Origin: a virus
Direction: 5' to 3' (one strand)
DNA: 31,610 nt
Virus record (IMG/VR): IMGVR_UViG_3300025886_000100
Span: 1 to 31,610 of that record
Below, piece by piece: positions 3,001 through 31,601 of this stretch; the stretch's first letter is position 1; every line of letters begins with the position of its first letter. The translations under genes were made by a program, and so were the position numbers. Below the pieces are notes generated by a model that did not search any database, was not told the DNA's origin, and worked only from the letters and a program-made list of their open reading frames with translations.

Positions 3001-3054
3001 GTCAAGGTCTTTATTCATTTTAGACTTTATAAAAGTATTCCTTACTTCTGCCAT
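1..3054 (-). CDS. Giant virion protein, tail/muzzle-like (3'-truncated by the window edge)
   Basis: The frame is open from ATG at 3054-3052 to base 1, giving at least 1018 residues with no stop, so the C-terminus lies outside the window. The protein starts MAEVRNTFIKSKMNKDLDAR and soon has LPAGEYRDAVN. I recall this MNKDLD...GEYRDA N-terminus from very large structural proteins of marine phages, and possibly from crAss-type muzzle or stabilisation proteins; that link is memory, not a search result. The rest is rich in Asn, Pro, Tyr and Trp with long beta-like stretches, as in extended virion proteins. Near residue 980 is a GMGYELGDTLTI module shared with three other genes here, followed by a short polyglutamine run. 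It lies 2 bases after the stop of the 405-aa connector-like gene, so it probably belongs to the tail. Virion role is likely; the exact part is not established. Confidence 0.8.
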   Translation of the reverse strand, partial: MAEVRNTFIKSKMNKDLDARILPAGEYRDAVNVTVSTSEGADVGALENILGNKLLPNFGISSNDVGVELIGVKEEPGKNRVFAFFTNYVDASDDNLSNQAPKNAHCSIVVYDITTGNQVSLVAGSFLNLSKTHPIFGINIIEDLLFWTDNRNQPRQINIELATANPSNNANPYYTIEENVSVAKYYPFETPTVYSEETITVTVATTTTSWAGITTPTNYPQMLFESTCTITSGTPTMKLHPGLKFELISTVEDPNYPDPVNPELTYPYQNEIKKYLFQPFIQDDPSLSTIAGIGLTEPLWFVNPWNSTDQPNYNPPDPLKFISNIPFHYIDAGVQQPWSGTATIKLIEQNAVSVTEKWLKPTYRFPFINYAQTDGSPLQGDFLQSQSLAGVSSFHNLPVPSMWPNNAAPTDQDAADYQESIGSRLVMISTGAVGNLTAGPNAYGVGNDFGSSAKFDYYYRRWFCNYLQPGMKVSWPAMLEDGNDYIIDQIFGSDGPTTFGGAGNPFTQSGYLALSIRKIDKEGKPVKEWQWPIFDIVGFPGGSAVPQLSFSFENPYYEEEFGGNETFFEEKFCRLAYRFIYDSNETSLISPFTQSLFKPKQEGFYLYDDVYAGFQAAGESSSSFSQAEAAPNSDINRVGLGTTNFLYENSINKINVNIPMPVVNNNVLQVGQINNVLKIKQIDIVYEDSASTNLLVLKSISVDDPSIVGNTDTSYTYKWEGDKPFKVLPTSEATRASDKVPIRALGQEVSGNRIIYGNFVNRHTSPEFLDYSVGISRKYTVQQKFSEKSGIEYPNHTLKQNRIYQVGVVLSDKYGRQSDVILAPPVFSTDVADNSIFSGDTFFSRYFKRSEVSGLVTSSSSNIVNWIGNSLKMLWNSTIPKSIPGLQGYPGLYTLLGSVNSFDSFVSNLNAGYKTSKNVTTTNTLGSGSGLTVDIVATPIIAGPSGGQITSVNINNSGMGYELGDTLTIDGGTTLTQLTIAGVNEANDLGWYSFKVVVKQQQQQYYNIYMPTTINGEP
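44..59 (-). repeat. Short CAG triplet run encoding polyglutamine
   Basis: The plus strand shows CTG repeated four times within TTGCTGCTGCTGCTGCTT. On the coding strand this gives KQQQQQYY near the end of the visible part of the giant virion protein. It is a small in-frame microsatellite; a length change would add or remove glutamines without a frameshift. Confidence 0.7.
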
Positions 3055-4277: not shown

Positions 4278-5363
4278 TTATCTTTTATTATTATTTTCTT
4301 CTTGAGCAAGTTCTTGTGATGCAGCTTGTATTATGCTTGGGTCTCTTATTACAACACCAGCATATTTTAGTATTTCTAATATAACTTCATTTTGTTGGCT
4401 ATCACTTATTTCAAAATCAACAGATCCTTCAGATGGAACAACCGCTACGAAGTTAGATGCTTGTAATGTAAAAACTGTAACGCCACTAGAACTTCCAGCA
4501 AAAGAATTATTACCATCACCTAGCGTTATTTGATCACCTATATTAAATCCGCTTCCTCCACTTGTTATAGTAAAAGATTTAAGTGGTCCTTTTCCAGTGT
4601 TAGGATCTATATCTACAGTAAAATCAGCAGAAGCACCTGTTCCGCCTGTTGGTGTGACTTGTACAAAAGAAGTTATATCAGTATTTGGAATAGTAGAACT
4701 TCCGCTAGCTATTGAACAATTTACTAAATTATTTTGCCCACCAGTAGTTGTATTAAATAAGTCTTGATTTGTTTTAAGAACGCCAGTGAAAGTTATTGGA
4801 GGATTTGGGTCATAGATATATTGACCTAGTGAACCTACTGTAAAACCCCATCTAGGGTCTTTAGGTTTTCTAATATAGTTAAATGTAACATCTGTTTTAT
4901 CAGAAGCTAATTCGCTTGGAAATACAGTTAGTTTATCTTTTTGATATTTAGCAACAGGAAAATTGTTTGTTGGTTGCAATAATGGAGATAATTTCATTTC
5001 GTTATAATCTCTATTGCTTAAAATTTCTATAGGTGGTGAATTAACACCTTTATTCCATGAAGCAGATCCAAACCTGTGTAATCCAGTTGGTTGAGTATAA
5101 ACGTTGTTTGTTTGAGCAGACGCACTTTCTATTTCTTCAAATACTTGAAACTCTTGCAAGATGTGATCAACTCTAGATGCAAATTCAACATCTGTTTTAG
5201 GCATTCGTAAATACTGGTTATAGTCCTCAAAGAACTTTTCAAATATCTCTAACTGTACTTGAGTAGCTATTTTATTAAACTCATCAGGGGTTAAATAACC
5301 TCTTTGCTCTTTGTTTAATATACTTAATACCGTTGTATATACCGTGTTTACGTTTATTGCCAT
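4278..5363 (-). CDS. Head-tail connector-like virion protein with an inserted beta-module, 361 aa
   Basis: I place the start at ATG 5363-5361 (MAINVNTVYTTVL). An ATG 13 codons upstream would place MVLSPPFFFKNIK on top of a transcription-terminator hairpin and is rejected. The N-terminal ~100 residues are helical (RGYLTPDEFNKIATQVQLEI, FEKFFEDYNQYLR). The middle carries FNYIRKPKDPRWGF. After it comes an apparent insert (GGTGASADFTVDID then GGSGFNIGDQITLG) of the module also seen in the genes at 1-3054, 6250-6903 and 16631-17197. The C-terminus is helical again (NEVILEILKYAGVVIRDPSI). The helical frame with a beta insert and its position between head proteins and the giant tail protein suggest a connector or ring component; this is inference. 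Confidence 0.75.
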   Translation of the reverse strand: MAINVNTVYTTVLSILNKEQRGYLTPDEFNKIATQVQLEIFEKFFEDYNQYLRMPKTDVEFASRVDHILQEFQVFEEIESASAQTNNVYTQPTGLHRFGSASWNKGVNSPPIEILSNRDYNEMKLSPLLQPTNNFPVAKYQKDKLTVFPSELASDKTDVTFNYIRKPKDPRWGFTVGSLGQYIYDPNPPITFTGVLKTNQDLFNTTTGGQNNLVNCSIASGSSTIPNTDITSFVQVTPTGGTGASADFTVDIDPNTGKGPLKSFTITSGGSGFNIGDQITLGDGNNSFAGSSSGVTVFTLQASNFVAVVPSEGSVDFEISDSQQNEVILEILKYAGVVIRDPSIIQAASQELAQEENNNKR

Positions 5364-5375
5364 TTTAATATTTTT

Positions 5376-5406
5376 AAAAAAAAAGGGTGGCGATAAAACC
5401 ACCCTT
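5376..5406 (-). terminator. Rho-independent terminator-like hairpin before the 361-aa gene
   Basis: On the minus strand an 8-bp perfect stem (AAGGGTGG/CCACCCTT) encloses an 8-base loop and runs into nine U residues. It starts 15 bases after the stop of the 255-aa gene and ends 12 bases before the next ATG, leaving no room for a separate promoter between them. Confidence 0.85.
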
Positions 5407-6249: not shown

Positions 6250-6903
6250 TTAAGATAAAACTACAGAAATGCATTCTGCATTACTTGTAAATTTAACTTC
6301 TGGCTGTGAATTTTCAGCACCAGCAGCTTTGATAATAGCAGCAGCAACATCAGCTTGTAAAGCGGCTTTAGTTGTTGCAGGCGCGTTGTCCACGGTTATT
6401 GTATACTTAGTTACTTCACCACTACCACTTGTTGGTGTAGCAAAATTATTTTCCAATATTTGTATATCACACGCAGTAGCACTAACACCACTCACACATG
6501 CTACGTTATTTATTGGAATTAAAGCGTACTCGTTAGTTGCAGATCCTTCAATAGCAATAAGCATTGCAGATGTTATTTCAAATACTATATCAGCATCAAA
6601 ACTAGTTACTCCAGTTGCAGCAGCTTTTGAAGCTAATGTAACAGTATCACCTACTTTGTATCCTTCACCTATATTTGAAGAAGCGGTTATCGCAAGAACA
6701 AATGTACCACCAGTAAGTGTTACACTAAACTCTGCACCAGTTCCATTTCCGCTAGTTGTTGTAGCTCCAGAGGCAACTGCAGTTCCAGCGACTCTAGATC
6801 CACCACCTGTGTATCCGGCACCTTGCGTTCCAACACTGATAGCGGAACCAACAAAACTTCTAGCAGCATTAATCGCTAAAGGTACTTTTATAAAATTACT
6901 CAT
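6250..6903 (-). CDS. Small beta-rich head protein with GxGY-GD module, 217 aa
   Basis: The ATG start gives MSNFIKVPLAINAARSFVGS. The protein is rich in Ala, Gly, Ser, Thr and Val, typical of beta-structured virion proteins. Residues ~45-95 carry a module (GTGAEFSVTLTGG then GEGYKVGDTVTLA) that recurs in the genes at 1-3054, 4278-5363 and 16631-17197. The N-terminus (M-x-N-x-I-K-x-P) resembles that of the gene just upstream (MPNMIKLPI), so the two may share a docking segment. It lies two genes after the major capsid gene and ends at a strong terminator. A head-decoration or minor capsid role is inferred; no homologue is named. Confidence 0.7.
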   Translation of the reverse strand: MSNFIKVPLAINAARSFVGSAISVGTQGAGYTGGGSRVAGTAVASGATTTSGNGTGAEFSVTLTGGTFVLAITASSNIGEGYKVGDTVTLASKAAATGVTSFDADIVFEITSAMLIAIEGSATNEYALIPINNVACVSGVSATACDIQILENNFATPTSGSGEVTKYTITVDNAPATTKAALQADVAAAIIKAAGAENSQPEVKFTSNAECISVVLS

Positions 6904-15543: not shown

Positions 15544-15767
15544 TAATATTTAAGATCGTATTCTACAGAAACAGCCATATTAGAATTAAACTTTTTCCAA
15601 GGAAGAACTTCATTATTTTTTTTTATAAAAATATTATAAGAATTATCTTTACCTTCAAAAAGAATATCACTAATTATGTGACCACCATAAACCTCTTGAC
15701 CTGTAGAGTAATGCATAGCTTCATTTTTATAATCAGCACCTATACTAATCTTTCTTATCTTCGACAT
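15543..15767 (-). CDS. Small conserved-looking protein, 74 aa, unknown function
   Basis: I choose ATG 15767-15765, giving MSKIRKISIGADYKNEAMHY; an ATG 11 codons upstream would deepen the overlap with the preceding gene from 23 to 56 bases. The body is beta-rich: TGQEVYGGHIISDILF, NSYNIFIKKNNEVLPWKKFN and a final VSVEYDLKY. The pattern (ISIGxDYKN, HYxxGQEVxGG, VLPWKKFNSNMxVSVEY) matches small unannotated proteins I recall from marine phage genomes. No signal, membrane segment or enzyme motif is seen. It ends in a TAATG overlap with the double GroES-like gene, suggesting coupled translation. Function unknown. Confidence 0.75.
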   Translation of the reverse strand: MSKIRKISIGADYKNEAMHYSTGQEVYGGHIISDILFEGKDNSYNIFIKKNNEVLPWKKFNSNMAVSVEYDLKY

Positions 15768-15990
15768 CTTTTTCAACACTTGTATATTCTCCAGTCTCAA
15801 GATCTACATTTATAGGTCCATAGCTTGATTCTAATACTTCTTTATAATCTCTTATATCTTTGTTTACAACAGCTATTTCGTGAAGTAGTCCATGTTTTTG
15901 AGTTTCTATTAAACCTATTTCATTAACTAACTTACTAAGATTTTTTTGTTGCTCTTTTATAAGCTTTAATTCTTCTTCTTTAATTTTCAT
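15745..15990 (-). CDS. Coiled-coil small protein, 81 aa, tandem paralogue 2
   Basis: The ATG start gives MKIKEEELKLIKEQQKNLSK. Residues ~3-55 are a continuous heptad-like helix (LIKEQQKNLSKLVNEIGLIE). They are followed by the motif LESSYGPINVDLETGEYTSV and a charged tail. The C-terminal motif aligns with LEKKYGSVNINITTGEISEI in the gene directly upstream, so the two are tandem paralogues of nearly the same length that have diverged in the helix. The leader is an ATTAA repeat. I recall the Y-G-x-[IV]-N-[IV]-x-x-x-T-G-E ending from small proteins of marine phages but know no function. Confidence 0.75.
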   Translation of the reverse strand: MKIKEEELKLIKEQQKNLSKLVNEIGLIETQKHGLLHEIAVVNKDIRDYKEVLESSYGPINVDLETGEYTSVEKDVEDKKD

Positions 15991-16006
15991 TTTATTTAAT
16001 TTAATT
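15991..16006 (-). repeat. ATTAA pentanucleotide leader before a start codon
   Basis: On the minus strand AATTAAATTAAATAAAATG shows a 5-base period running into the start codon of the 81-aa gene. It overlaps the last codons of the preceding paralogue. No Shine-Dalgarno is seen. Confidence 0.55.
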
Positions 16007-16240
16007 TTCTATTTCTGAAATTTCGCCTGTAGTTATGTTTATATTAACACTTCCATACTTTTTTTCTAACATATCTCTAATGTCAGCTTGCTCAGATCTA
16101 GCTGTTTTAAGTAAATCTACATATTCAAGTTTAGTTATTTCCATTTGACCTATTTCTTGAGTTATGTTAGTTACTCTATTTGTAACTTCAGAAACTTCTT
16201 TTAATTCTTTTTTAGTTACTTTTTTTGCTTTTGTTTTCAT
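16001..16240 (-). CDS. Coiled-coil small protein, 79 aa, tandem paralogue 1
   Basis: The ATG start gives MKTKAKKVTKKELKEVSEVT. A basic N-terminus leads into a long helix (NRVTNITQEIGQMEITKLEY) and then LEKKYGSVNINITTGEISEI near the end. The same order, length and final motif occur in the next gene (15745-15990), which marks a tandem duplication. The helix probably dimerises; the C-terminal motif looks like a short beta hairpin. The leader is ATCAA repeated three times before ATG. Function unknown; no DNA-binding or membrane motif is visible. Confidence 0.75.
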   Translation of the reverse strand: MKTKAKKVTKKELKEVSEVTNRVTNITQEIGQMEITKLEYVDLLKTARSEQADIRDMLEKKYGSVNINITTGEISEIEN

Positions 16241-16630: not shown

Positions 16631-17197
16631 TTAAAATAAAGCTAAAACATCTCCTATAGCAGATATACCACTTTTAACTTGTTTTGCTAGCACTGGCAAA
16701 AAAGAACCTGCAGTTACACCTTTAAAAACTATAGTTTCTTTACCACCTTCTGTAACAATACCAATATCACTAGCTACACCTACGTATAAGCAGCATCCTC
16801 TCATCTCAGTGTTTGGAATATCAATATTGTTAACAGTTGCAGCAAATCCTATTCCACCTGCTGGAGTAACAGAAGCTTGAGTTAAAGCGTCATTTACAGT
16901 ATAACCTTCACCGTAAGGTTTGTTTGCAGTACCGCTATCAGTTAGTTCATATGAAGTAATTACGCCTGCGTTAACTTTTAATACTTTTACTTTAGCAGCA
17001 GAAACTCCCGCTCCAGCACTTAATGTAATAACATCACCAACCGTGTATCCACTTCCAAAATTAGTAACAGTTAAACCAGAATTAAAACCTGGGTTGTCCA
17101 TTTGTGAAGTATAATTTATGGCACCAACTACTATTTTAACAGCATCATGAGCAAAAACTCTAGGTTCAGCGGCTTGATTTCCATTTAATCCTTTCAT
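16631..17197 (-). CDS. Beta-module virion-type protein, 188 aa
   Basis: The ATG start gives MKGLNGNQAAEPRVFAHDAV. Two copies of the window's shared module are visible: FGSGYTVGDVITLSAGAG at ~48-65 and YGEGYTVNDALTQASVTPAG at ~95-114, each next to Gly/Ala-rich strands. The C-terminal part has GCCLYVGVASDIGIVTEGG and IVFKGVTAGSFLPVLAKQV. The same module occurs in head and tail proteins at 1-3054, 4278-5363 and 6250-6903, which suggests this is also a virion protein although it lies in the small-gene region far from them. Its overall build resembles the 217-aa head protein. The exact role is unknown. Confidence 0.7.
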   Translation of the reverse strand: MKGLNGNQAAEPRVFAHDAVKIVVGAINYTSQMDNPGFNSGLTVTNFGSGYTVGDVITLSAGAGVSAAKVKVLKVNAGVITSYELTDSGTANKPYGEGYTVNDALTQASVTPAGGIGFAATVNNIDIPNTEMRGCCLYVGVASDIGIVTEGGKETIVFKGVTAGSFLPVLAKQVKSGISAIGDVLALF

Positions 17198-21164: not shown

Positions 21165-21599
21165 TCATCTTGTTTTATCTTTATTAACGTAGTCTATAGA
21201 TTTAGTAATTACCTTAAAGCTATATCTATTACTTTTTTCTAATTTAGTTGTAGGCATGTCTTCTTCGCCTAGCATAATACGGTACATGCGACTTATCAGC
21301 TGTTTGCACTTGAAGGAAACTTTATATATGTGATATTTTTGAGTGGTGTGGTTTCTTTTCCGCCACACTGTAATCCACCCTTGTTTCAATAATCTGTTCC
21401 AGCGCCTGTTATCCCAGCTGAATGAGTACGTACCTTTTATAAAATCATCTTTAGTAAACATATCTATAGCATCAAGATATATTAATAGTTCTAAATCTGC
21501 ATCATTTAAATTATTAGTTTTGCAAGCCCACTTACGTATTATTCTATAATGTTTAAGCAAACCTAGTTCTTTTAAATCGCTAGAACTTAACTTTCTCAT
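21165..21599 (-). CDS. Winged-helix-like protein, 144 aa, next to groES
   Basis: The ATG start gives MRKLSSSDLKELGLLKHYRI. Helices (LNDADLELLIYLDAIDMFTK) lead into SWDNRRWNRLLKQGWITVWR, then HTTQKYHIYKVSFKCKQLIS and RMYRIMLGEEDMP. The 'hLxxGWIxxxRKR...YxIYKVSxKCKxLI' pattern resembles the recognition helix, wing and following helix of MarR/phage-type winged-helix proteins. I recall very similar proteins in marine phage contigs, so it is a conserved gene. It may regulate late genes or bind DNA in packaging; no target site can be named. Its ATG overlaps the groES stop (ATGA), so it is translated together with the chaperonins. Confidence 0.65.
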   Translation of the reverse strand: MRKLSSSDLKELGLLKHYRIIRKWACKTNNLNDADLELLIYLDAIDMFTKDDFIKGTYSFSWDNRRWNRLLKQGWITVWRKRNHTTQKYHIYKVSFKCKQLISRMYRIMLGEEDMPTTKLEKSNRYSFKVITKSIDYVNKDKTR

Positions 21600-21856
21600 A
21601 ATATAATAACTACATCAAACTCTTTAATAACCTTATATTCTTCTTTGTTTATTTCAATATTAAATCCAGCTGCTTTATCATAATAAACTTCGTCACCTTT
21701 TTTTAACACCGATACATCAGAGCCAGGTTCTATAACCTTAGCTCTTCTATATCTAACATCTTCTCTCTGCTTTTCAGCTAAGATTAATCCACCTTTTGTA
21801 GTTACATCAGTTTCCTTGACTGGATCTATAACTATAAATTTACCTACTGCTTTCAT
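21596..21856 (-). CDS. groES: Co-chaperonin GroES
   Basis: The 86-aa product is slightly shorter than typical bacterial GroES (~95). It starts MKAVGKFIVIDPVKET. The mobile loop that contacts GroEL is at ~15-32 with the binding tripeptide region GGLIL (22-26). The barrel strands VRYRRAKVIEPGSDV and LKKGDEVYYDKAAG follow, and the end YKVIKEFDVVIIL corresponds to the final strand after the 'DI' motif. The roof hairpin is reduced, which explains the length. It acts as the heptameric lid of the GroEL cage. The ATG overlaps the groEL stop (ATGA), so it follows groEL, opposite to the bacterial groES-groEL order. The intact mobile loop contrasts with the double GroES-like protein at 14950-15543. Confidence 0.93.
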   Translation of the reverse strand: MKAVGKFIVIDPVKETDVTTKGGLILAEKQREDVRYRRAKVIEPGSDVSVLKKGDEVYYDKAAGFNIEINKEEYKVIKEFDVVIIL

Positions 21857-23400
21857 GCTCTAATGTTGTTAATAACACAATCAGTAGATAATATTGTTGT
21901 GGCTACTGAGGCTGCGTTCATTAGTGCACTTTTAGTAACTAGCAAAGGATCTATAATTCCGGCTTTTACCATATCAACCGTATTTCCTGTAACCACGTCT
22001 AATCCCGTGCCTTTTACTTCTGGTGTTTTATAATCTTCAACGCCAGCATTTTTAAGTATCAATTTATAAGGCTCTTTAATAGCACAGTAAAGTACTTCTT
22101 CGCCTATTGACATTGGTTTTAATTGCTGTGCAGCGTTTAATAAAGCTATACCACCTCCTGGCACTATACCTTCTTTGATCGCAGCTTTTGTAGCGCAAAT
22201 AGCATCTTCAACTCTATCTCTTTTTTCTTTTAATTCTAACTCTGAATTAGCACCAACTTTAACAGTTGCAACTTTTGCTTTTAATTTAGCTAATCGTTTT
22301 TCTAGTCTAACTATTATATTAGAATTTTTAGTTTCTTTAACTTGCTTTTCTAACAATTTAACAATGTCTTTAACATCTTCATTACTAGATAAATCAACTT
22401 GCATGATAGTATCTTCATGGTTTGTAACAGCCTTTAAACAGGTCCCTAGGTGTTCTGGATTTATAATATCCATATCATCGCCTAAGTCTTCATTAATAAG
22501 TGTAGCACCAGTAACCGCGCATAAATCATTTAGAGTATCCTTTTTACTAATACCATAAACCGGTGCATCTACAATGTTGACCTTTATGTTTCCTTTTACT
22601 TTATTCATCGAAAGTGCTGAAACAACTTGTGGGTCAACATCTGCTATTATAAGCAAACTCTTACCTGTCTTTATTACATGTTCAAGAACTGATTGAATTT
22701 TTCGAACATTGGGTATTACTGACTCTACAATTAGAATCAACGGATTTTCAAGTTCAGCCGTGCCCTTTTCTTTGTTGGTAATAAAGTGGTTATTTTTAAG
22801 AGGCTGATCATACTGGACGCCTTCTATTAATTCAACTACTGTTTCAGGTTGTTCATTTGTTTCCATCATAACAATACCTGTTTCGTCCACTAATGCAAAT
22901 GCCTCACCTATAACTCTCCCAAGCTTTTTATCGTTATTGGCTGATATTGTAGCCACTTGGTTAATTTTTTTACCTTTTACTTTCTTTGCTGTCTTTTCTA
23001 AATAAGCTATAACTTTTTTAACACCTGAGTTAATACCTTCTTTTAATTCTCTTGAAGTATCTAGTTCACTATGTTTGTAAGCTTCATCTAAAATAGCTTT
23101 TGCTAATACTGTAGCTGTAGTTGTACCATCACCAGCATCTGATACTGTTCTTTGCGCTGCTTGCTTTATTAACGTAGCTCCAATATTTTCTAAAGAATCT
23201 TGTAATGTAACTGCATTAGCTACTGTTACTCCATCTTTTGTTATTTGTGGTGTCCCATTGCTATCCTCTAGTATAACACATTTACCACTTGCTCCTAAGG
23301 TTGATCCCACTGCGTTAGTAAGTTTTTCTACCCCAGTTAATATCTGACTTCTGGCACTATCACCAAAAGCCAGATTTTTAACTAACTTTAATTCTTGCAT
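21853..23400 (-). CDS. groEL: Chaperonin GroEL (Hsp60), phage-encoded
   Basis: The 515-aa product aligns by eye with GroEL over its full length. In the equatorial domain, ITKDGVTVA carries D56 (E. coli D52), DGTTTATVLA carries D91 (E. coli D87), and RDRVEDAICATKAAIKEGIV carries D399 (E. coli D398). GGGIALL and ASVATTILSTDCVI follow. The intermediate and apical regions include ATISANND and the hydrophobic LILIVESVIPNVRKIQSVLE substrate-binding area. Two differences stand out: the nucleotide-loop GPKG of bacteria reads GASG (36-39), and the C-terminus ends CVINNIRA with no Gly-Gly-Met tail. It folds proteins in an ATP-driven cage, probably virion proteins. Phage GroELs are known from giant Pseudomonas phages and virioplankton. 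An ATTAA leader precedes it. No heat-shock-type promoter or operator is visible. Confidence 0.97.
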   Translation of the reverse strand: MQELKLVKNLAFGDSARSQILTGVEKLTNAVGSTLGASGKCVILEDSNGTPQITKDGVTVANAVTLQDSLENIGATLIKQAAQRTVSDAGDGTTTATVLAKAILDEAYKHSELDTSRELKEGINSGVKKVIAYLEKTAKKVKGKKINQVATISANNDKKLGRVIGEAFALVDETGIVMMETNEQPETVVELIEGVQYDQPLKNNHFITNKEKGTAELENPLILIVESVIPNVRKIQSVLEHVIKTGKSLLIIADVDPQVVSALSMNKVKGNIKVNIVDAPVYGISKKDTLNDLCAVTGATLINEDLGDDMDIINPEHLGTCLKAVTNHEDTIMQVDLSSNEDVKDIVKLLEKQVKETKNSNIIVRLEKRLAKLKAKVATVKVGANSELELKEKRDRVEDAICATKAAIKEGIVPGGGIALLNAAQQLKPMSIGEEVLYCAIKEPYKLILKNAGVEDYKTPEVKGTGLDVVTGNTVDMVKAGIIDPLLVTKSALMNAASVATTILSTDCVINNIRA

Positions 23401-23793: not shown

Positions 23794-25677
23794 TTATTTT
23801 TCTTTTTCAAAGAAGTGTAAACAAACGCCGTATGAAGATGTTTGTTCCGCGCCTTTTAAAGCAGTACCTAGCGCTTCCGCTCCAACAGCTATATAAGAAT
23901 TAATTAATAGACCAAGGAATGAGTTTACGAATAATTTATCATTACCAAGAGCATTGGCGAAATCTTCTTTCGATTTTTCAAATGAAACAAATATTACTAA
24001 AGGCGTGCCAGCAGCAATGTTTGCCTGGGTAAATGCTCCGTTGTTAAAGGGCATTTCATTTACCGCATTTTGTGTCCCGCTCCCGGCAGTTTGTGTTCCC
24101 GATAGAATTAAAGTACCCGTACCTGGTGATGCTATAGTTCCTTCATATACATTTACTGAAATGCCTGCACCTCCATTAAGCCTAAAAAAATCTACAGTAT
24201 TTATAGTACAATCGTCTTCAACTACGGTTTGCCTAATATAAGTAACACCAAGTGCACCTTCTTCAGAACCTACGCTACTTTCACCTTCATATATAGTCAT
24301 AGAGTGAAAACCATCTTTTCCACCACCTGATGTTCCGCTATTTGCTGAAGTTAACCTTCCTTGAGCGTCTACCGTTATATTAGCATTAGTGTAAGAGCCT
24401 GCACTAACTGCAGTGTTGTCTAAACTAACTGTTGTTTGATAAGTTGTCGGTGGTCCACCACCTGCAGTAGCTATTTCAGTAGTAATACCTGTTCCACCCA
24501 CTATATCTAAAGTATCACCATTAGCTATTGTTTGAGTCCCCCCACTGTCAGCATCTGCTATCCAGCTAGTCATTCCAGATGTTGGAGTTGCTATCCAGGA
24601 AAATTCTCCTGCACCGTTTGATTCAAGTATTTGATTAGCTACATTAGGCAGTTTGTTAGGAAAATATAGTTTATAACTATCACCTGCAGTAGCCGTATCA
24701 GGACCTACTAAAGACACAAAGTTAGTGTCTGACTTGTCATACCAAGTTAATTGACTTGGTAAACCATTGTTACCCATTAGCTCTGCCCAACCTTCGATCG
24801 TAACTACTTTAGTTGCTAAAGAATTTTGTTTTATTACAGAATTATCAAGATCTGTTGTTGTGTCCCAAACTGGTATTCTACCTATTGTACCTGTTCCACC
24901 AACTGTTCCGCCACCAACGTCATAATTAGTTGATCCTATAGTTATAGTTGTTAGAGCATTTCCACCAGATCCTGGATTAGCTACTACGTTTGTACTGGTT
25001 GGTGTAGTTATAAAATTTAAGTTTCCACTTGCGTCAGACTCTAATATTCTTCCACCTGCTACTGGAGTAACTGTAGTAAGTAATTCTGGTAAAATTAATT
25101 TATAAGAATTAACTTCGTCTGATGGTGGAGGTCCTTCTATGTCAACAAAATTATTATTACTACTACTATACCACCTTACGTTTGATTCTTTATTAGTACC
25201 TGCTGATTTTATTTGAAGATCATATAAAACACTTACTGAACCTGCACTTTCTCTAGTTATAGGTGAATCACCTAGTGTTGTTGCATTAGTCCAATATGGT
25301 ACTTTATTTGCAGTTCCGCTTCCACCAACAGTACCACCTGCTACAGCGTAGTTAACTGATCCTATAGTTATGGATGATAAAGTGCCTGTTGTGCTTCCAG
25401 GATTAGCTACAACTGTAGTTCCACTGCTTTTTAATACTAGATTAGCATCAAGAATACCACTTTCAAACCAATACTCAACAACTGTAGTTCCGCTATTGGT
25501 AGTATCTACTAAACCTACTGTAAGACCTTTATATCTAAAATTTGATGTTACTTCGCTTAAAGCAAGTGTTCTAGCAGCTGCAATTCCAGAACCTTCAAAA
25601 GGACCATACTTAACATCTACCGGAGATACTGTGGTTATTAGTACGCTACTCGCTAATTCTATTCCTGTTAATGCCAT
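23794..25677 (-). CDS. Tail fibre/adhesin protein A2 with internal duplication, 627 aa
   Basis: The N-terminal ~85 residues (VDVKYGPFEGSGIAAARTLA, RYKGLTVGLVDTT, VVEYWFESG) closely match the N-terminus of the 741-aa protein at 27939-30164 and probably anchor both to the same virion site. Residues ~88-229 and ~230-367 are two copies of one domain (VVANPG...ITIGSxNY...GGTVGG...SYKLxxP...ILES...TPTS). Then comes the phage-fibre repeat GSYTNANITVDAQGRLTSAN (~428-447) and a distinct C-terminal domain from ~455 (GFHSMTIYEGESSVGSEEGA, then SVNVYEGTIASPGTGTLILS), probably the receptor-binding tip. It is the last gene of the adhesin block. A role in host recognition is inferred from architecture; the receptor is unknown. 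Confidence 0.78.
   Translation of the reverse strand: MALTGIELASSVLITTVSPVDVKYGPFEGSGIAAARTLALSEVTSNFRYKGLTVGLVDTTNSGTTVVEYWFESGILDANLVLKSSGTTVVANPGSTTGTLSSITIGSVNYAVAGGTVGGSGTANKVPYWTNATTLGDSPITRESAGSVSVLYDLQIKSAGTNKESNVRWYSSSNNNFVDIEGPPPSDEVNSYKLILPELLTTVTPVAGGRILESDASGNLNFITTPTSTNVVANPGSGGNALTTITIGSTNYDVGGGTVGGTGTIGRIPVWDTTTDLDNSVIKQNSLATKVVTIEGWAELMGNNGLPSQLTWYDKSDTNFVSLVGPDTATAGDSYKLYFPNKLPNVANQILESNGAGEFSWIATPTSGMTSWIADADSGGTQTIANGDTLDIVGGTGITTEIATAGGGPPTTYQTTVSLDNTAVSAGSYTNANITVDAQGRLTSANSGTSGGGKDGFHSMTIYEGESSVGSEEGALGVTYIRQTVVEDDCTINTVDFFRLNGGAGISVNVYEGTIASPGTGTLILSGTQTAGSGTQNAVNEMPFNNGAFTQANIAAGTPLVIFVSFEKSKEDFANALGNDKLFVNSFLGLLINSYIAVGAEALGTALKGAEQTSSYGVCLHFFEKEK
24577..24990 (-). 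repeat. Second copy of the internal fibre domain
   Basis: This segment encodes residues ~230-367 of the 627-aa adhesin. It shares with the first copy the landmarks VVANPG, TITIGSTNY, GGTVGGTG, DSYKLYFP, ILES and TPTS in the same order and spacing. Confidence 0.75.
24991..25416 (-). repeat. First copy of the internal fibre domain
   Basis: This segment encodes residues ~88-229 of the 627-aa adhesin, with landmarks VVANPG, SITIGSVNY, GGTVGGSG, NSYKLILP, ILES and TPTS. The two copies are also recognisably similar at the DNA level near CCTATAGTTAT. Confidence 0.75.
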
Positions 25678-25679
25678 TT

Positions 25680-27767
25680 TTAATTATTTCTTAATTGTAG
25701 TGGTGAAACTGTAGATTGCTGCACACTTGTTGATATATGCATTCTATATTGTATGTTTGACCAAGGGCCTCCATTTCTTGAGATATTTACTGTTACTACC
25801 GGATCAAAAAGATTTGTTATTACATTCTGATTTAAAATGTCTAAAAAATACCGTGTTTTAACTGGAAACTGACTGTTGTTAGCTAAAAAAGGGTAAGCTA
25901 CAACAGTAAAAACAGCTGCTGGAGTATAATTAAGCACGTTTAAAGTACCATTTGAAGGAACTAAATTTTCAACAACAGCATAACCTCCTGGTATTGCTAA
26001 GTTTCCTTCTATCATTAATACCGCGTTACTTGAAGTTGGCTTAGTACTACTATAAAAATAATACCAAGGATAAACTGAGGATATAGATGTAGAATTAGAG
26101 TTATATGACGCAAGTGCAGCTATTGGATCATTTACTGTTGCAGCATTTGGAACTGCAGGTGTTCTAGTATCAAGCGCGCCTGTAGAATCTTTGTTAGGAT
26201 CTCCTTCTAACCATCCAGTGTTAGAATTAAAAGTATCTGAAGCTGTCTGTGTAGTAGTAGGTATACTTGTAGTAAATGATTCACTAGCTGTCCTCGTGTT
26301 TGTAGTATTTGGTGTGTTATTATTTGCAAACCCAAATTGACTCGGTAAATTACCAGTTGTTCCTGAGGTAGCTGTTCCCATTGATGGGGTAGATGAACCA
26401 TTTCTGTTTGTTATTATAGTACCATCAATTCCACCAGAATCTTGTTTTGTAAAAGTTGTACTGGTATTCACAGTTACTGATTGACCTGGCTGATAATAAG
26501 TTTGTGAAGGTGACGTTGTTTTAGTTATTGTAAAAAGCGGCCTTTTGTATGTTGGTAGTAAAGTAGGAAACAATAATTTATTAAACAATTCAGTAAAAGT
26601 TAAAGTTGATAAAGATGCAGCAGTTTCACTATTTGAAATACCTCCTACTGCTTGAGCATTTGTAGTAGGACTTATTTGAGTATCAAATATAGTATTTAAA
26701 GTTACAATGTTACTTCCAGGAGATGTTTCAGCTGCTATTAAACCACCACCATTTAAATCTGTAGGTATTTGTAAACCTTCTAAAGCTGTAGTTAAAGTTG
26801 TTAAACCAATTGGTGTTCCTGGATTGTTTGGATCGTCACTATAATCAAATGATTCAACCTCAATAGAACCTCCTGAACCACCGCCTAGTGCAATACACCA
26901 AGTAGCTGACGTTGTAATACTACCTGATGAAGATGTTACAGCAATTACTATAGCACCTGTGCCAGCTACATAGCTAGAAACAGTACCTAATATTAAATTT
27001 GATCCAGATGTTAATCTTATGCTTTGGCCTTGTGTATATGATAGATTTGTACCTATCGTTAAGCTAATTGTTTGTGTGGTTACTGGAACCACAATAGTTT
27101 GTGTTGTACAATCTGCGTATTTATCTCCTCCGGTTCCAACACCTGTATCTCCTATATATCGCCAACCTCTAGCATATAAAGTAGGCATTGTACCACCATT
27201 TTGATTTTTTAAAAAAGTTATTGCATCTGAAGATAAAAGCAACAAACCTTGATCATAATTCCAAACCCAACCAACTTCACCATTTATAGTAGCAGCATCA
27301 GTAGCTTGAAGCTGCGTGTATGTTGTTCCTACTAAATAATATATTTCTATAGTATAATAAGGTACTGGAATACCATTGACAGGCACACTAGAAGGATTTA
27401 TCCAATTATTTTTCCTATCACTACTTCTATCAGCTGGATTGTCATAAGAAACATATGTAGTGTCATTACCATTAGTAGCTTGTGTCAACTCATGATAAAG
27501 AGGTACTTGCGAAGCGGGTTGAAAATAATTATTAGACACTATATTATACAGTGCTCCACCGCTAGAAGTTAGTGTTACTAAGTTTGCTATAGATGTAGGA
27601 GGATTAGCAGTTACAGTATTATATTCTAAAAATATTCTATCTTTAGTTATTTTAGGACTGTTTTCAAGTACAGATTCATACCACTGAAAATTAGTGTTGG
27701 CATCAATTACATTAGCTGCTTGTACCTTAAACGTTAACTTACTTACCGCATCACTTGTAAAACCCAT
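25680..27767 (-). CDS. Tail fibre/adhesin protein B2, 695 aa
   Basis: The ATG start gives MGFTSDAVSKLTFKVQAANV. Residues 1-~380 are unique, with several small beta domains (YYTIEIYYLVGTTYTQLQAT, GWRYIGDTGV, SYTQGQSIRLTSGSNLILGT). From ~383 to the end it is a paralogue of the C-terminal two thirds of the 477-aa protein at 30168-31601. Shared landmarks are TAASLSTLTFTELFNKLLFP, PTYKRPLFTI, KQDSGGIDGTI, SSVYPWYYFY and a final YRMHISTSVQQSTVSPLQLR. This suggests a common Ig-like or beta-sandwich head-group with a different N-terminal part. It starts in TAATG with the 55-aa gene and ends 2 bases before adhesin A2. A virion surface role is inferred. Confidence 0.75.
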   Translation of the reverse strand: MGFTSDAVSKLTFKVQAANVIDANTNFQWYESVLENSPKITKDRIFLEYNTVTANPPTSIANLVTLTSSGGALYNIVSNNYFQPASQVPLYHELTQATNGNDTTYVSYDNPADRSSDRKNNWINPSSVPVNGIPVPYYTIEIYYLVGTTYTQLQATDAATINGEVGWVWNYDQGLLLLSSDAITFLKNQNGGTMPTLYARGWRYIGDTGVGTGGDKYADCTTQTIVVPVTTQTISLTIGTNLSYTQGQSIRLTSGSNLILGTVSSYVAGTGAIVIAVTSSSGSITTSATWCIALGGGSGGSIEVESFDYSDDPNNPGTPIGLTTLTTALEGLQIPTDLNGGGLIAAETSPGSNIVTLNTIFDTQISPTTNAQAVGGISNSETAASLSTLTFTELFNKLLFPTLLPTYKRPLFTITKTTSPSQTYYQPGQSVTVNTSTTFTKQDSGGIDGTIITNRNGSSTPSMGTATSGTTGNLPSQFGFANNNTPNTTNTRTASESFTTSIPTTTQTASDTFNSNTGWLEGDPNKDSTGALDTRTPAVPNAATVNDPIAALASYNSNSTSISSVYPWYYFYSSTKPTSSNAVLMIEGNLAIPGGYAVVENLVPSNGTLNVLNYTPAAVFTVVAYPFLANNSQFPVKTRYFLDILNQNVITNLFDPVVTVNISRNGGPWSNIQYRMHISTSVQQSTVSPLQLRNN

Positions 27768-27934
27768 TATCCGTCTATTAAAGCTTGATTATATGTTGCT
27801 ATTATTTTATTAATATCAGAAAACCTTAACTGATAATTGTTTACGACGGTATCATTTACTTTGATGCTTAGATCGCATTTTTCATCTGGTATATTAACCT
27901 TTAAAGTTACTTTGTTTTTAAAAATATCTTCCAT
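27767..27934 (-). CDS. Tiny protein between adhesin genes, 55 aa
   Basis: ATG 27934-27932 gives MEDIFKNKVTLKVNIPDEKC, then DLSIKVNDTVVNNYQLRFSD and INKIIATYNQALIDG. It fits exactly between two adhesin genes: 4 bases after the stop of A1, and its TAA overlaps the ATG of B2 (TAATG). The build is a short beta sheet with a C-terminal helix. It could be a fibre assembly factor or small virion subunit; I do not recognise it. The tight fit and full use of the gap support a real gene. Confidence 0.65.
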   Translation of the reverse strand: MEDIFKNKVTLKVNIPDEKCDLSIKVNDTVVNNYQLRFSDINKIIATYNQALIDG

Positions 27935-27938
27935 TTGT

Positions 27939-30164
27939 TTAAAAATTTAAAGCGCATGTAATACTATTTATTTTTATATTTGGTTCTAAGTATTGTATCT
28001 CTACAAATATACCTATGTCTGCTGAGAAGCTTCCAAATGTAGCTTGTACTGAGTTACCACTAGAAGTAGATGCTCTAATAGTAGCACTATGAGTATCTAT
28101 ACCACTTCCTCCATCATTAAAAGCACCTGGACTCCAATATCTATTTGGGTTTGAAGGAGTACTGTTCCAGTTATGTAAGTTTAAAGGAACAGCAGTATTA
28201 GCACCAAAGCTAGCTCCACTATTGGATGCAACTCTTCTTATATATATTTTAATATCTTGATTATTTAAAGCATCATTAATATTACTATTACCAGTTCCCC
28301 AATTTGAACCAGTAAATGTTAAACTAAATGACGCAAAAGGAAATCCTGTACTAGCACCGTTGCCAAACTGCCTATGGTATACACTAGGCTTATTGAAAGT
28401 GCTAAAATTTGTATTTTGACTAGGTAAGTATCCAGTTGAAAAATCTAATTGTGTATTACCATTGCTTAAATCAAATGTATTAGCAGAAATTAGTTCTGCT
28501 CCATTATTACTAAACCCATCCACTATTTGGCAAGCATCTTGAAAATCACTATTAGTAGCAGCGTTTGGTTTTGTACCAAATTCTAAAGTTGATAAAGCTG
28601 TTTGAGAGTTCCAATTATTGTAGTTAGCTGTTAAACTAGCTTTACTAAGTCTTTTAGATTCGTTATTGAAATATTCAGTTAAATCTGAAGGATTTGTTCC
28701 TCCAGGTGTTAATATTAATACGTCTAAATTATTAGCACTAGCTCTGGTAGCATCATTCCAAGGATCTGATATTGTAAGTGTAGAACCACCAGCTGCACCT
28801 CTATAAGTATACGCATTAGATTGTATGGTAAAATCATCGTAGTCATACTTTATGGCTATTTTGTCCCAATTATCATTCCATCCACTAACATTTCCATTTG
28901 TTGGACTCCATGCTTTATCGCTAACACCAAGCGTGTTCATACCTGATAGAGCAGTAAATGCTAAGTTATTAGCAGCGCTGCCGTTTTTACCTTGAGTATT
29001 TCCGTTTATGCCTTGTATAAATTTAGAACTTATACCAAATTTAGAACCAGCAGTCAAGTATTTAACACCACTTAAATATGAATAAATTTGAGTTGATTGT
29101 GGTGCTGTAGGACCAAAAGTAACACTAGTCGTGTCTGGGCTAGTTGGATCTGCATCGGCAAAAACATCAGCAAAACTATACGTTATAGCAGTTTTTGGAG
29201 TACCTGGATTTGTACCTGGCTCTGGTAGAACTTGGTCTGGCGTAAAAATTATTTCAGCAGAAAATTTACCTCCTACCCTAGGCACTGAATTTAATATATC
29301 TTCTATTTTAATTTTAATATTTAATTTAGCTTGGTATTGTGTTGGATCTCCATAAGGATCTACTATAGCCGCATAGTTAGAAACTGTCACTTCTATTTGA
29401 TTTTGTCCAAATGTAGTATTTCCATCTAAAACCCCAGTGGTCTCATTACGGAGTAGTGTCACACCATCAGCATCATAAACTTTAACTTGAACTTTACAAC
29501 CAGTAGCGGTTGGTGCTCCTACCGGACTAAACCCTAGTATATATACATTGCTTCCAGGTTTAAACTGTAGTTCTGTTGCAGAGCTAAGTAAATAAGCTGA
29601 TCGTTCAAGTCCAGTCCAACCACCTGTATCAAAATTACCATTAGTAGAAGGATCACTGATTCTTAATGTTTTTCTAAGTGAAGCAATTGGATCAGCTACA
29701 ATAGCACCGGTTTGATTAAAATATGGCGGATATGTAGGTGATGCAGGTGGTGGAAAAAATATGTTTACTTGATCAGCATCATTAGGATCTTCTTGAGCAA
29801 ATACTCTTAAATCATTAGGATCATAATTAACAAAGTTAAATTTTTCATAAGCGCCTGTAAGTTGAGAAGGTGTGCCAGTAGGTCCTGTTTGATTTAAAAC
29901 TATTATATCGCCTCCGCCTCCAGAACTTTTTTCAACAAGGTTTGTTATGTCCACTCCACCATAGAACCAATATTCTACTACAGGATCAGGCGCAGAGCCT
30001 AGAATAATACCAACAGTTAGTCCTTCATATCTATTACCTAATGAAACAGTAGAATCTATTAACGTTCTAGCTGCTGTTATATCCGCAGCGACATATGGAC
30101 CGTATCTCACATCTAGTGGCGCATTTGTTGCTACGAATATATTATCTGGTAACTGTATCGCCAT
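27939..30164 (-). CDS. Tail fibre/adhesin protein A1, 741 aa
   Basis: The ATG start gives MAIQLPDNIFVATNAPLDVR. The N-terminal ~80 residues (PLDVRYGPYVAADITAARTL, NRYEGLTVGIILG, VVEYWFYGG) are paralogous to those of the 627-aa adhesin and probably form the virion-binding part. The rest is unrelated to it: a beta-sandwich stretch with KVQVKVYDADGVTLLRN and KLNIKIKIEDILNSVPRVGG, then a long Asn/Ser/Thr-rich region (SFADVFADADPTSPDTTSV, NFSTFNKPSVYHRQFGNGAS), and a final IGIFVEIQYLEPNIKINSIT. The pattern of one conserved anchor with exchanged distal domains is typical of phage fibres. It lies 3 bases after B1. Confidence 0.75.
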   Translation of the reverse strand: MAIQLPDNIFVATNAPLDVRYGPYVAADITAARTLIDSTVSLGNRYEGLTVGIILGSAPDPVVEYWFYGGVDITNLVEKSSGGGGDIIVLNQTGPTGTPSQLTGAYEKFNFVNYDPNDLRVFAQEDPNDADQVNIFFPPPASPTYPPYFNQTGAIVADPIASLRKTLRISDPSTNGNFDTGGWTGLERSAYLLSSATELQFKPGSNVYILGFSPVGAPTATGCKVQVKVYDADGVTLLRNETTGVLDGNTTFGQNQIEVTVSNYAAIVDPYGDPTQYQAKLNIKIKIEDILNSVPRVGGKFSAEIIFTPDQVLPEPGTNPGTPKTAITYSFADVFADADPTSPDTTSVTFGPTAPQSTQIYSYLSGVKYLTAGSKFGISSKFIQGINGNTQGKNGSAANNLAFTALSGMNTLGVSDKAWSPTNGNVSGWNDNWDKIAIKYDYDDFTIQSNAYTYRGAAGGSTLTISDPWNDATRASANNLDVLILTPGGTNPSDLTEYFNNESKRLSKASLTANYNNWNSQTALSTLEFGTKPNAATNSDFQDACQIVDGFSNNGAELISANTFDLSNGNTQLDFSTGYLPSQNTNFSTFNKPSVYHRQFGNGASTGFPFASFSLTFTGSNWGTGNSNINDALNNQDIKIYIRRVASNSGASFGANTAVPLNLHNWNSTPSNPNRYWSPGAFNDGGSGIDTHSATIRASTSSGNSVQATFGSFSADIGIFVEIQYLEPNIKINSITCALNF

Positions 30165-30167
30165 GCT

Positions 30168-31601
30168 TTAAGAATTTTTTAGTTGTACTGTTGCTTGTGT
30201 AGCTGATTTTAAAGCTATGTATATTTTATAATCAAGAGCCCAAATACCAGTATCGATATTTACCGTGAGAGGTTGAGAAAATAAGTTTGCGTTAGGATCA
30301 CTTCCTCCACTGGGAGAAGGATCTTGAAATACTGTACCGCCAATGTCTCCTTGAGCAGTTACATTTTCAAACCATTTAGTTTTTGTGGTATTAACATATG
30401 GATGAGCAAACCACATCCACTCGCCACCTGATGTAGCATTAAAATTTACTGTAATTGTGTTATTTGACAATGCTAATACTTTATTATACCCTAAACCAGA
30501 CCCTGCTTCTATAGCTGTTTCAATAGCATTTATAGAAGGTGTGTAACCAGTACTTGCAAAATCAATACCTCCACTACTCACTTTAGATACTCCCCAATAA
30601 TAAGGGTATATAGCATTAAACGATGCAGTTGAATTTAATGTATCTCCTTGAACAGGATTTCCAGATAAGTTACCTGCACTGTCTTGCAGCTGAGCACCAG
30701 TCAATGATTTAGCAGTTGCTGCATATGTTATTGTATTAACAGCAGCTGTATATGAATTAGATATTGTAAAAGTATCACTATATGTTCCAGTTTGCCTCAC
30801 CTGAGGATTATTAGGGTTAGGGTTGGAGTTTGGAAACTGTGGAGGTAAATCAGCTAAAGTTGTAGGTGTTATTGATATAGGAGTTAAACTAGCTGATGGA
30901 GTATTTCTACTTAATGTCATAGTTCCTTCAAATCCACCTGAGTCTTTGTTTACAAAATTTAATGTTAAATTATTAGTTACTAAAGCACCTACTTCTTTGT
31001 AGGAATTTATAGAACTAGTAAGTGAAAAAGTTGGCTGAACATAAGTAGGTGGTACAGTTGGAAAAAATATTTTATCTAGTAAATCTACTATATCGTTGCC
31101 TTTTAACGTGCTTGCTGCTGTACCTGCTTGTATAGAACCCACATCTTCAACTGTTAAAGTCGAATCTGCCACTACTGTATTATATGAACCAGCTATATCA
31201 GCTTGTGTAGAATCTGTAGTGTCTTCAGTTACTGTGTATATTTTTCCAGCAAAATTTAAAACTTTAGTAGGATCAACCGTTGTATTAGCGTCTTTAACAG
31301 ATATACTTCCTCCGCCACCTCCACCGTCAACATACTCTAATCCAGTCTCAGCTTGATTAACAGCTATTACTTGACCTGCTGTTCCAAAGCCATTTAATCC
31401 AGTTAATTGTATTTTAAAGTCTCCATCAAGAGAAACAGGCTCAATAGTTTCTATCTTAGACTTAACATACTTCATTAAAACTTCTAAATCAGTAGTTTTA
31501 GTCTTAAAATTAGGATCATTACTTTGTGAGTCTGATAATATTATCTCATCTTTATTAGCTAATGGATCTTTCTTAAAAGGGTATGTTGTTATTATTGGCA
31601 T
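30168..31601 (-). CDS. Tail fibre/adhesin protein B1, 477 aa
   Basis: The ATG start gives MPIITTYPFKKDPLANKDEI. The N-terminus (EIILSDSQSNDPNFKTKTTD, then LNGFGTAGQVIAVNQAETGL) resembles the attachment segment of phage fibre proteins, followed by a glycine hinge (DGGGGGGSISVKD). From ~155 it is paralogous to the end of the 695-aa protein, sharing TAASTLKGNDIVDLLDKIFF, PTYVQPTFSL, NKDSGGFEGTM, NAIYPYYWGVSK and a final YKIYIALKSATQATVQLKNS. AGAAGG sits 3 bases before the ATG and could be a Shine-Dalgarno, unusual in this window, but it may simply be coding sequence of an upstream gene beyond the edge. Host attachment is inferred. Confidence 0.75.
   Translation of the reverse strand: MPIITTYPFKKDPLANKDEIILSDSQSNDPNFKTKTTDLEVLMKYVKSKIETIEPVSLDGDFKIQLTGLNGFGTAGQVIAVNQAETGLEYVDGGGGGGSISVKDANTTVDPTKVLNFAGKIYTVTEDTTDSTQADIAGSYNTVVADSTLTVEDVGSIQAGTAASTLKGNDIVDLLDKIFFPTVPPTYVQPTFSLTSSINSYKEVGALVTNNLTLNFVNKDSGGFEGTMTLSRNTPSASLTPISITPTTLADLPPQFPNSNPNPNNPQVRQTGTYSDTFTISNSYTAAVNTITYAATAKSLTGAQLQDSAGNLSGNPVQGDTLNSTASFNAIYPYYWGVSKVSSGGIDFASTGYTPSINAIETAIEAGSGLGYNKVLALSNNTITVNFNATSGGEWMWFAHPYVNTTKTKWFENVTAQGDIGGTVFQDPSPSGGSDPNANLFSQPLTVNIDTGIWALDYKIYIALKSATQATVQLKNS

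Follow-up and report, generated by a model that had tools for sequence, protein, structure and literature searches.

A border-straddling plug and socket as a proposed fibre connector in a Crassvirales-like podovirus

Background

The window, that is, the whole stretch of DNA analysed here, is one complete IMG/VR virus record of 31,610 bases, and it encodes two pairs of large fibre-type proteins, B1 with A1 and B2 with A2, in which the C-terminal part of B and the N-terminal part of the A encoded next to it are shared between the pairs. In our assessment it is probable that the B C-terminus is a socket and the A N-terminus a plug, through which a proximal fibre segment is coupled, end to end, to a distal one. 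We further propose, with a confidence poised midway between doubt and acceptance, that socket and plug, straddling a gene border, make up a previously unrecognised and chainable fibre connector, whose partly distinct pairs would allow two fibres to be built without cross-talk and which would have moved between phages to lengthen fibres or to swap distal adhesins. The pair recurs where neighbouring genes meet in dozens of uncultured viruses, which gives it the look of a general device for building and lengthening fibres. No description of such a plug-socket domain pair was found in open-licence papers.

The fibre genes of uncultured phages are often annotated merely as hypothetical. A rule based on plug and socket is readable from sequence and predicts the genes that belong to one fibre, their order, and the point where the receptor-facing part starts; it yields a testable prediction on pairing specificity within one particle. 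The block formed by socket and plug also offers a concrete route by which a second adhesin could be added, or the distal one swapped, in a single event.

The fibre locus and its genomic setting

All genes called in the window lie on the minus strand. The genome is podovirus-like: a large terminase, a P22-type portal and a capsid protein were recognised by PHROG matches, and a crAss-type muzzle protein is encoded as well (Pfam PF25731, E 2e-8). The muzzle, portal, large terminase and capsid genes lie in a late block, a feature of Crassvirales-like podoviruses. For the portal, identities of 41-49% link it to Flavobacterium and Maribacter phages and to a Manatee Spring podovirus, and no whole-genome DNA match to the window was found among phages. 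A second IMG/VR contig, 3300025849_000164, is 100% identical across the overlap and reaches further upstream of B1; since it prolongs the locus in that direction, B1 is complete and is preceded by a gene of 339 aa. The five genes of the locus are, in gene order:

30168-31601, minus strand: B1, 477 aa, first
27939-30164, minus strand: A1, 741 aa, second
27767-27934, minus strand: 55-aa gene, third, between A1 and B2
25680-27767, minus strand: B2, 695 aa, fourth
23794-25677, minus strand: A2, 627 aa, fifth

Adjoining the fibre block, at 21596-23400, the phage has its own genes for GroES (86 aa) and GroEL (515 aa), which overlap by a few bases and are present too in the relatives MW202828 and Panino. 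Elsewhere in the window, two small neighbouring genes at 15745-16240, of 81 and 79 aa, are tandem copies that have diverged to about 28% identity. Translations also revealed an SGxGYxxGDxITL-like motif in at least three, probably four, otherwise unlike proteins (1-3054, 4278-5402, 6250-6903 and 16631-17197).

Regions shared by the two gene pairs

By blastp, B1 and B2 are 27% identical over 438 columns in the C-terminal part of each (E 3e-16), and A1 and A2 are 44% identical over 102 columns at the extreme N-terminus (E 3e-18), while the four B-versus-A comparisons gave at most 20 bits and no similarity. An earlier note on this DNA had inferred this sharing by eye, and the alignments bear it out; the outcome that it named as refuting, shared segments no more alike than generic fibre repeats, did not arise, the real scores being far above the maxima of 500 shuffles each (68.2 bits against 25.0 for B1/B2, 75.5 against 26.6 for A1/A2). 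Its picture of two B-A pairs with shared and non-shared halves, of fibre or adhesin character and with two distal bodies, is likewise supported. Where it spoke of a duplicated two-gene cassette, the similarity is real, but the repeated unit is a contiguous block across the gene border and not the gene pair: about 385 residues of B1 and 103 of A1 match about 401 of B2 and 104 of A2, in the order B C-terminus, stop, 2-3 nt, start, A N-terminus at both sites. The B N-terminal domains and the A bodies gave no similarity between the window copies by blastp, and direct nucleotide alignment of the two blocks left no signal. The domains are arranged as follows:

31323..31601, minus strand: N-terminal domain of B1, residues 1-93; probably docks the first fibre
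30171..31325, minus strand: B1 C-terminal putative socket, residues 93-477; blastp to B2, profile E 7e-122
30164..30170, minus strand: border between B1 and A1 (stop, 3 nt, start), lying within the contiguous socket-plug block
29910..30164, minus strand: A1 N-terminal putative plug, residues 1-85; 44% to A2, profile of 15 relatives
27942..29894, minus strand: A1 distal body, residues 91-741; homologues in L004-L009 and in Vibrio and Shewanella phages
27132..27767, minus strand: N-terminal domain of B2, residues 1-212; probably docks the second fibre; phrog_33494 E 2e-21
25683..26885, minus strand: B2 C-terminal putative socket, residues 295-695; blastp to B1, profile E 2e-113
25677..25682, minus strand: border between B2 and A2 (stop, 2 nt, start), lying within the second socket-plug block
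25414..25677, minus strand: A2 N-terminal putative plug, residues 1-88; blastp to A1, profile E 1e-27
23797..25413, minus strand: A2 distal body, which includes an internal duplication plus a widespread fibre motif

Pfam gave no match above cut-off for B1, A1, B2 or A2, and no T4gp10-like anchor domain. A weak resemblance of the plug to UPF0728 was not used (15.6 bits against a cut-off of 27 for A2; one relative at E 5e-4).

Homologues of the individual parts are scattered among other phages, designated here by L numbers. The B1 N-domain recurs in a one-piece fibre of L004 and in the first fibre gene of L034, L035, L043, L045, L049 and L050. The A1 body is 68% identical to its counterpart in L004, 30-34% to those in L005-L009 and 24-27% to Vibrio and Shewanella phage proteins, and the B2 N-domain, 79% identical in L004 and 47% in L005 and L007, is present in Shewanella and Vibrio phages too. 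The A2 body appears from its sequence to hold an internal duplication (approximately residues 84-235 and 236-370), for which an A2 self-blastp gave no separate report; at residues 416-452, a match of about 36 aa links it by tblastn to a structural protein of S-CBS2 and a tail fiber protein of Pam2. The 55-aa gene is 81% identical in L004 and has weak homologues in L005, L006 and L009.

Linkage of plug and socket in other viruses

IMG/VR was searched with the A N-domain, and the gene upstream of each hit was tested against a profile of the B C-domain. The socket was present in the gene directly upstream in 97 of 104 plug occurrences. Of the seven exceptions, four come from tandem A-A arrangements, in which they are the second A (two contigs, each fetched twice), and one is crAss002. 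Removal of identical pairs left 75 junctions, 47 of them below 75% similarity, in which the socket ends 0-15 residues before the C-terminus, the plug stands at the true N-terminus and the stop-to-start distance is mostly -4 to 40 nt. The B-then-A tandem order, in which fibre proteins would be encoded in the order of their assembly, holds for the window and for all 75 non-redundant junctions; L027 and L030 carry two B-A pairs each.

For the reverse direction we scanned with a DNA motif taken from the socket only; the motif was drawn from plug-found sockets, and the resulting rate applies to that subfamily. All 53 loci retrieved lay in sockets, and a plug followed directly downstream in 45 of the 48 with enough downstream DNA. 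Fifteen of the contigs were already known from the plug side; among the new ones the plug came next in 31 of 34. The three exceptions belong to one family, a free-standing 375-aa socket found in L143, L154, L157 and L160, of which the three with enough downstream DNA have no plug next. No confirmed relative of the plug was found in bacterial genomes.

One socket gene is followed by two tandem plug genes at L024:5413-9482 and L025:8001-12033, where two distal proteins possibly share or compete for one socket.

Seven proteins, which we call relay proteins, carry a plug at the N-terminus and a socket at the C-terminus, and in at least six of them (L034, L035, L042, L055, L060 and L070) the next gene again starts with a plug. 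Judging by this domain order, relay proteins would be the middle segments of three-part chains, and they are the strongest reason to read plug and socket as a connector and not as two separate functions. Several A and B partner proteins contain collagen-like GXY runs, the longest of 236 triplets, as trimeric rods would lead one to expect, and in some relay proteins collagen-like shafts lie between plug and socket.

A sister phage and a fibre module that cuts across the gene pairs

L004, assembled from the same metagenome as contig 3300025849_000164, has flanks of 77-80% DNA identity to the window on both sides, with the socket and plug parts absent or replaced; neither a plug nor a socket was found in it. 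Its counterpart of B1 and A1 is a single gene of 814 aa in which the B1 N-domain is fused directly to the A1 body. Similarity to A1 restarts at 'NQTGPTGTP', just past the GGGG linker, and similarity to B1 fades past B1's own Gly-rich stretch. The B2 homologue of L004 has the same N-domain, then a different and short C-terminal region, and is followed by unrelated genes. The plug is also absent from the distant A1-body homologues of L005-L009, and since none of these homologues in L004-L009 bears it, the plug on the A1 body looks derived, an argument from parsimony and not proof; as a counterpoint, several other phages combine the B1 N-domain with a socket. At L004:9399-9863 there is also a stand-alone gene of 154 aa that by eye resembles a tailspike intramolecular chaperone of the Peptidase S74 type.

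The order A1 body, small gene, B2 N-domain is kept in the Vibrio phages HNL01 and VCPH, where genes of 55 and 49 aa, respectively, occupy the equivalent place (by position only), and the genes for the A1 body and the B2 N-domain are direct neighbours in Shewanella phage 1/4. L009 has two fusions of the B2 N-domain to A1-type bodies; its region L009:4762-15167 contains A1-type bodies and B2-type N-domains, three of each, and these two proteins combine both kinds. The small gene had been taken as a spacer between two cassettes, a role that does not fit its membership in a syntenic Vibrio phage module that cuts across the B-A units. The occurrences in Vibrio and Shewanella phages and the fusions in L009 thus show fibre parts passing between phages that are only distantly related; in the window, the A1 body/B2 N-domain module has had the socket-plug block superimposed on it.

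These exchanges bear on the best-surviving alternative, which we nevertheless consider unlikely: that the socket-plug block is a recombination module only, its border a good crossover site and its two domains, inherited as one DNA segment, never touching. The exchange points between the window and L004 do fall at Gly-rich linkers, and A1 bodies and B2 N-domains have clearly been shuffled in L009. Socket and plug distance matrices are congruent (r 0.72 over 71 pairs; permuted maximum 0.13), as linkage alone, the adjacency of both on one DNA segment, would also predict. Crossover by itself, however, does not account for relay proteins that bear plug and socket at opposite ends and are followed by another plug-first gene. 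Moreover, the block has been retained even in pairs that share only 22-30% identity, outside the range of DNA-level homology, so that selection on protein function is the simpler reason for its persistence.

Pairing and origin of the two window copies

A stricter control than the distance matrices is to compare pairings inside one genome. Within genomes that have two junctions, cognate pairing was better than swapped pairing in six of nine, tied in one and worse in two, and it won strongly in L030, L060 and L070. The first pair of the window behaves as cognate (0.56, against 0.00 swapped); for the second the cognate pairing does not win (0.05 against 0.28). With six wins in nine and a second window pair that does not behave as cognate, distinct pairing specificities of the plug-socket pairs are suggested, not established. 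Two receptor specificities in the window phage are possible.

The B1 socket is 43% identical to the sockets of L021 and L045 and 30% to that of B2. The A1 plug is 57% identical to the L034 plug and 46% to the A2 plug, and the A2 plug is 55% identical to that of L047. Since the window copies resemble those of other phages more than each other, recent local duplication of a B-A pair, as the earlier note had it, is unsupported, and separate acquisition or old paralogy is more likely.

The same comparison weighs against a decidedly improbable reading in which the A N-domain is a virion anchor and a duplication of the B-A pair within this phage was followed by exchange of the distal parts. Phage fibre N-terminal domains are usually virion anchors, and the 44% identity between the window plugs would suit a duplication; yet a virion anchor need not trail a socket gene (97 of 104) or sit in the middle segment of a chain. 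The A N-domain, described before as such an anchor, is more likely to attach A to B than to the virion.

Predicted structure of the socket

The protein modelled was a natural relay protein of L034 (441 aa), from 24 sequences. Its socket part was predicted to be beta-rich and to form beta-sandwich domains (pLDDT 85-98), and its plug part was of low confidence as a monomer (pLDDT about 50). Carried over by homology from this model, the fold of the window B1 and B2 sockets would be one of tandem beta-sandwich domains. A model of the A1 body was discarded (pLDDT 43). A fold search of the PDB with the L034 socket returned nothing beyond generic sandwiches of the immunoglobulin-like or pilin kind, all at poor TM scores; structural relatives were present among viral tail proteins, including one of the crAss-like phage cr11_1.

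The idea that the B C-domain serves as a cap for folding or trimerisation, or else as a receptor-binding tip, the plug a separate oligomerisation domain and their adjacency a matter of synthesis order, accords with the trimerisation of fibres by C-terminal beta-rich domains, which is common, with structural matches to tail and baseplate proteins of varied role and with the free-standing socket family, but it leaves unexplained both the plug that follows the socket in 45 of 48 loci and the joint absence of plug and socket from the sister phage, and we regard it as very improbable.

Proposed assembly of the fibres

On the preferred reading, a connector of plug and socket, the window would encode two fibres, each a proximal B and a distal A joined end to end. 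The N-terminal domain of B, which differs between B1 and B2, would dock to the virion or collar; the tandem beta-sandwich domains at the B C-terminus would form the socket; the first ~85 residues of A would be the plug fitting the socket encoded directly upstream; and the remainder of A would be the outer body that meets the cell. The physical docking of socket and plug, the trimeric state, virion docking by the B N-domain and receptor binding by the A body are features that we infer. Because plug and socket straddle the gene border, a single recombination bringing in the socket-stop-start-plug block could turn a one-piece fibre into a two-piece one or add an extra segment, and repeated use of the block would produce chains.

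Comparison with known systems

Tentaclins were rejected as counterparts, as they have N-terminal lectin and C-terminal anchor Ig domains (PMC10743442). The family phrog_33494, which has no assigned function, covers the N-domain of B2 (residues 1-212) and nothing else of that protein.

In the long tail fibres of T4, proteins are joined end to end, and gp34, the proximal one, contacts the distal half-fibre through its C-terminal end (PMC5537660). The likeness to the T4 fibre (gp34-gp35-gp36-gp37) would lie in several proteins placed end to end, with relay proteins as the putative middle segments. The systems differ in that T4 has a monomeric knee protein, gp35, whereas the window type would reuse one homologous plug-socket pair at successive joints, in two fibres and in many genomes. 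Nor was a sequence relation found in the PDB, where the socket and plug profiles retrieved nothing at E up to 1, including no gp34-gp37 homology.

Among crassviruses, phicrAss001 has a trimeric gp22 that docks N-terminally and to which additional fibre proteins are bound (PMC10172136). The window has a related podovirus architecture, with a muzzle protein matching PF25731; in the phicrAss001 region 11000-50000 neither plug nor socket was found. The large protein gp19 of crAss002, encoded downstream of the capsid genes, has an N-terminal plug at residues 26-86, at E 3e-10 when the profile was built from just the two window plugs and at E 2e-26 with a larger profile that included the gp19 sequence itself. 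Its neighbour gp18, socket-like by eye, was rejected at E 0.55-0.66 against the socket profile, no better than decoys.

In the branched receptor-binding systems of Klebsiella and Escherichia phages, with their T4gp10-like anchors, conserved docking modules reportedly link proteins whose distal parts are swapped freely, and dedicated anchor domains near the N-terminus are said to give rise to branches. Unlike these, the linkage proposed for the window runs from C-terminus to N-terminus and would build linear chains.
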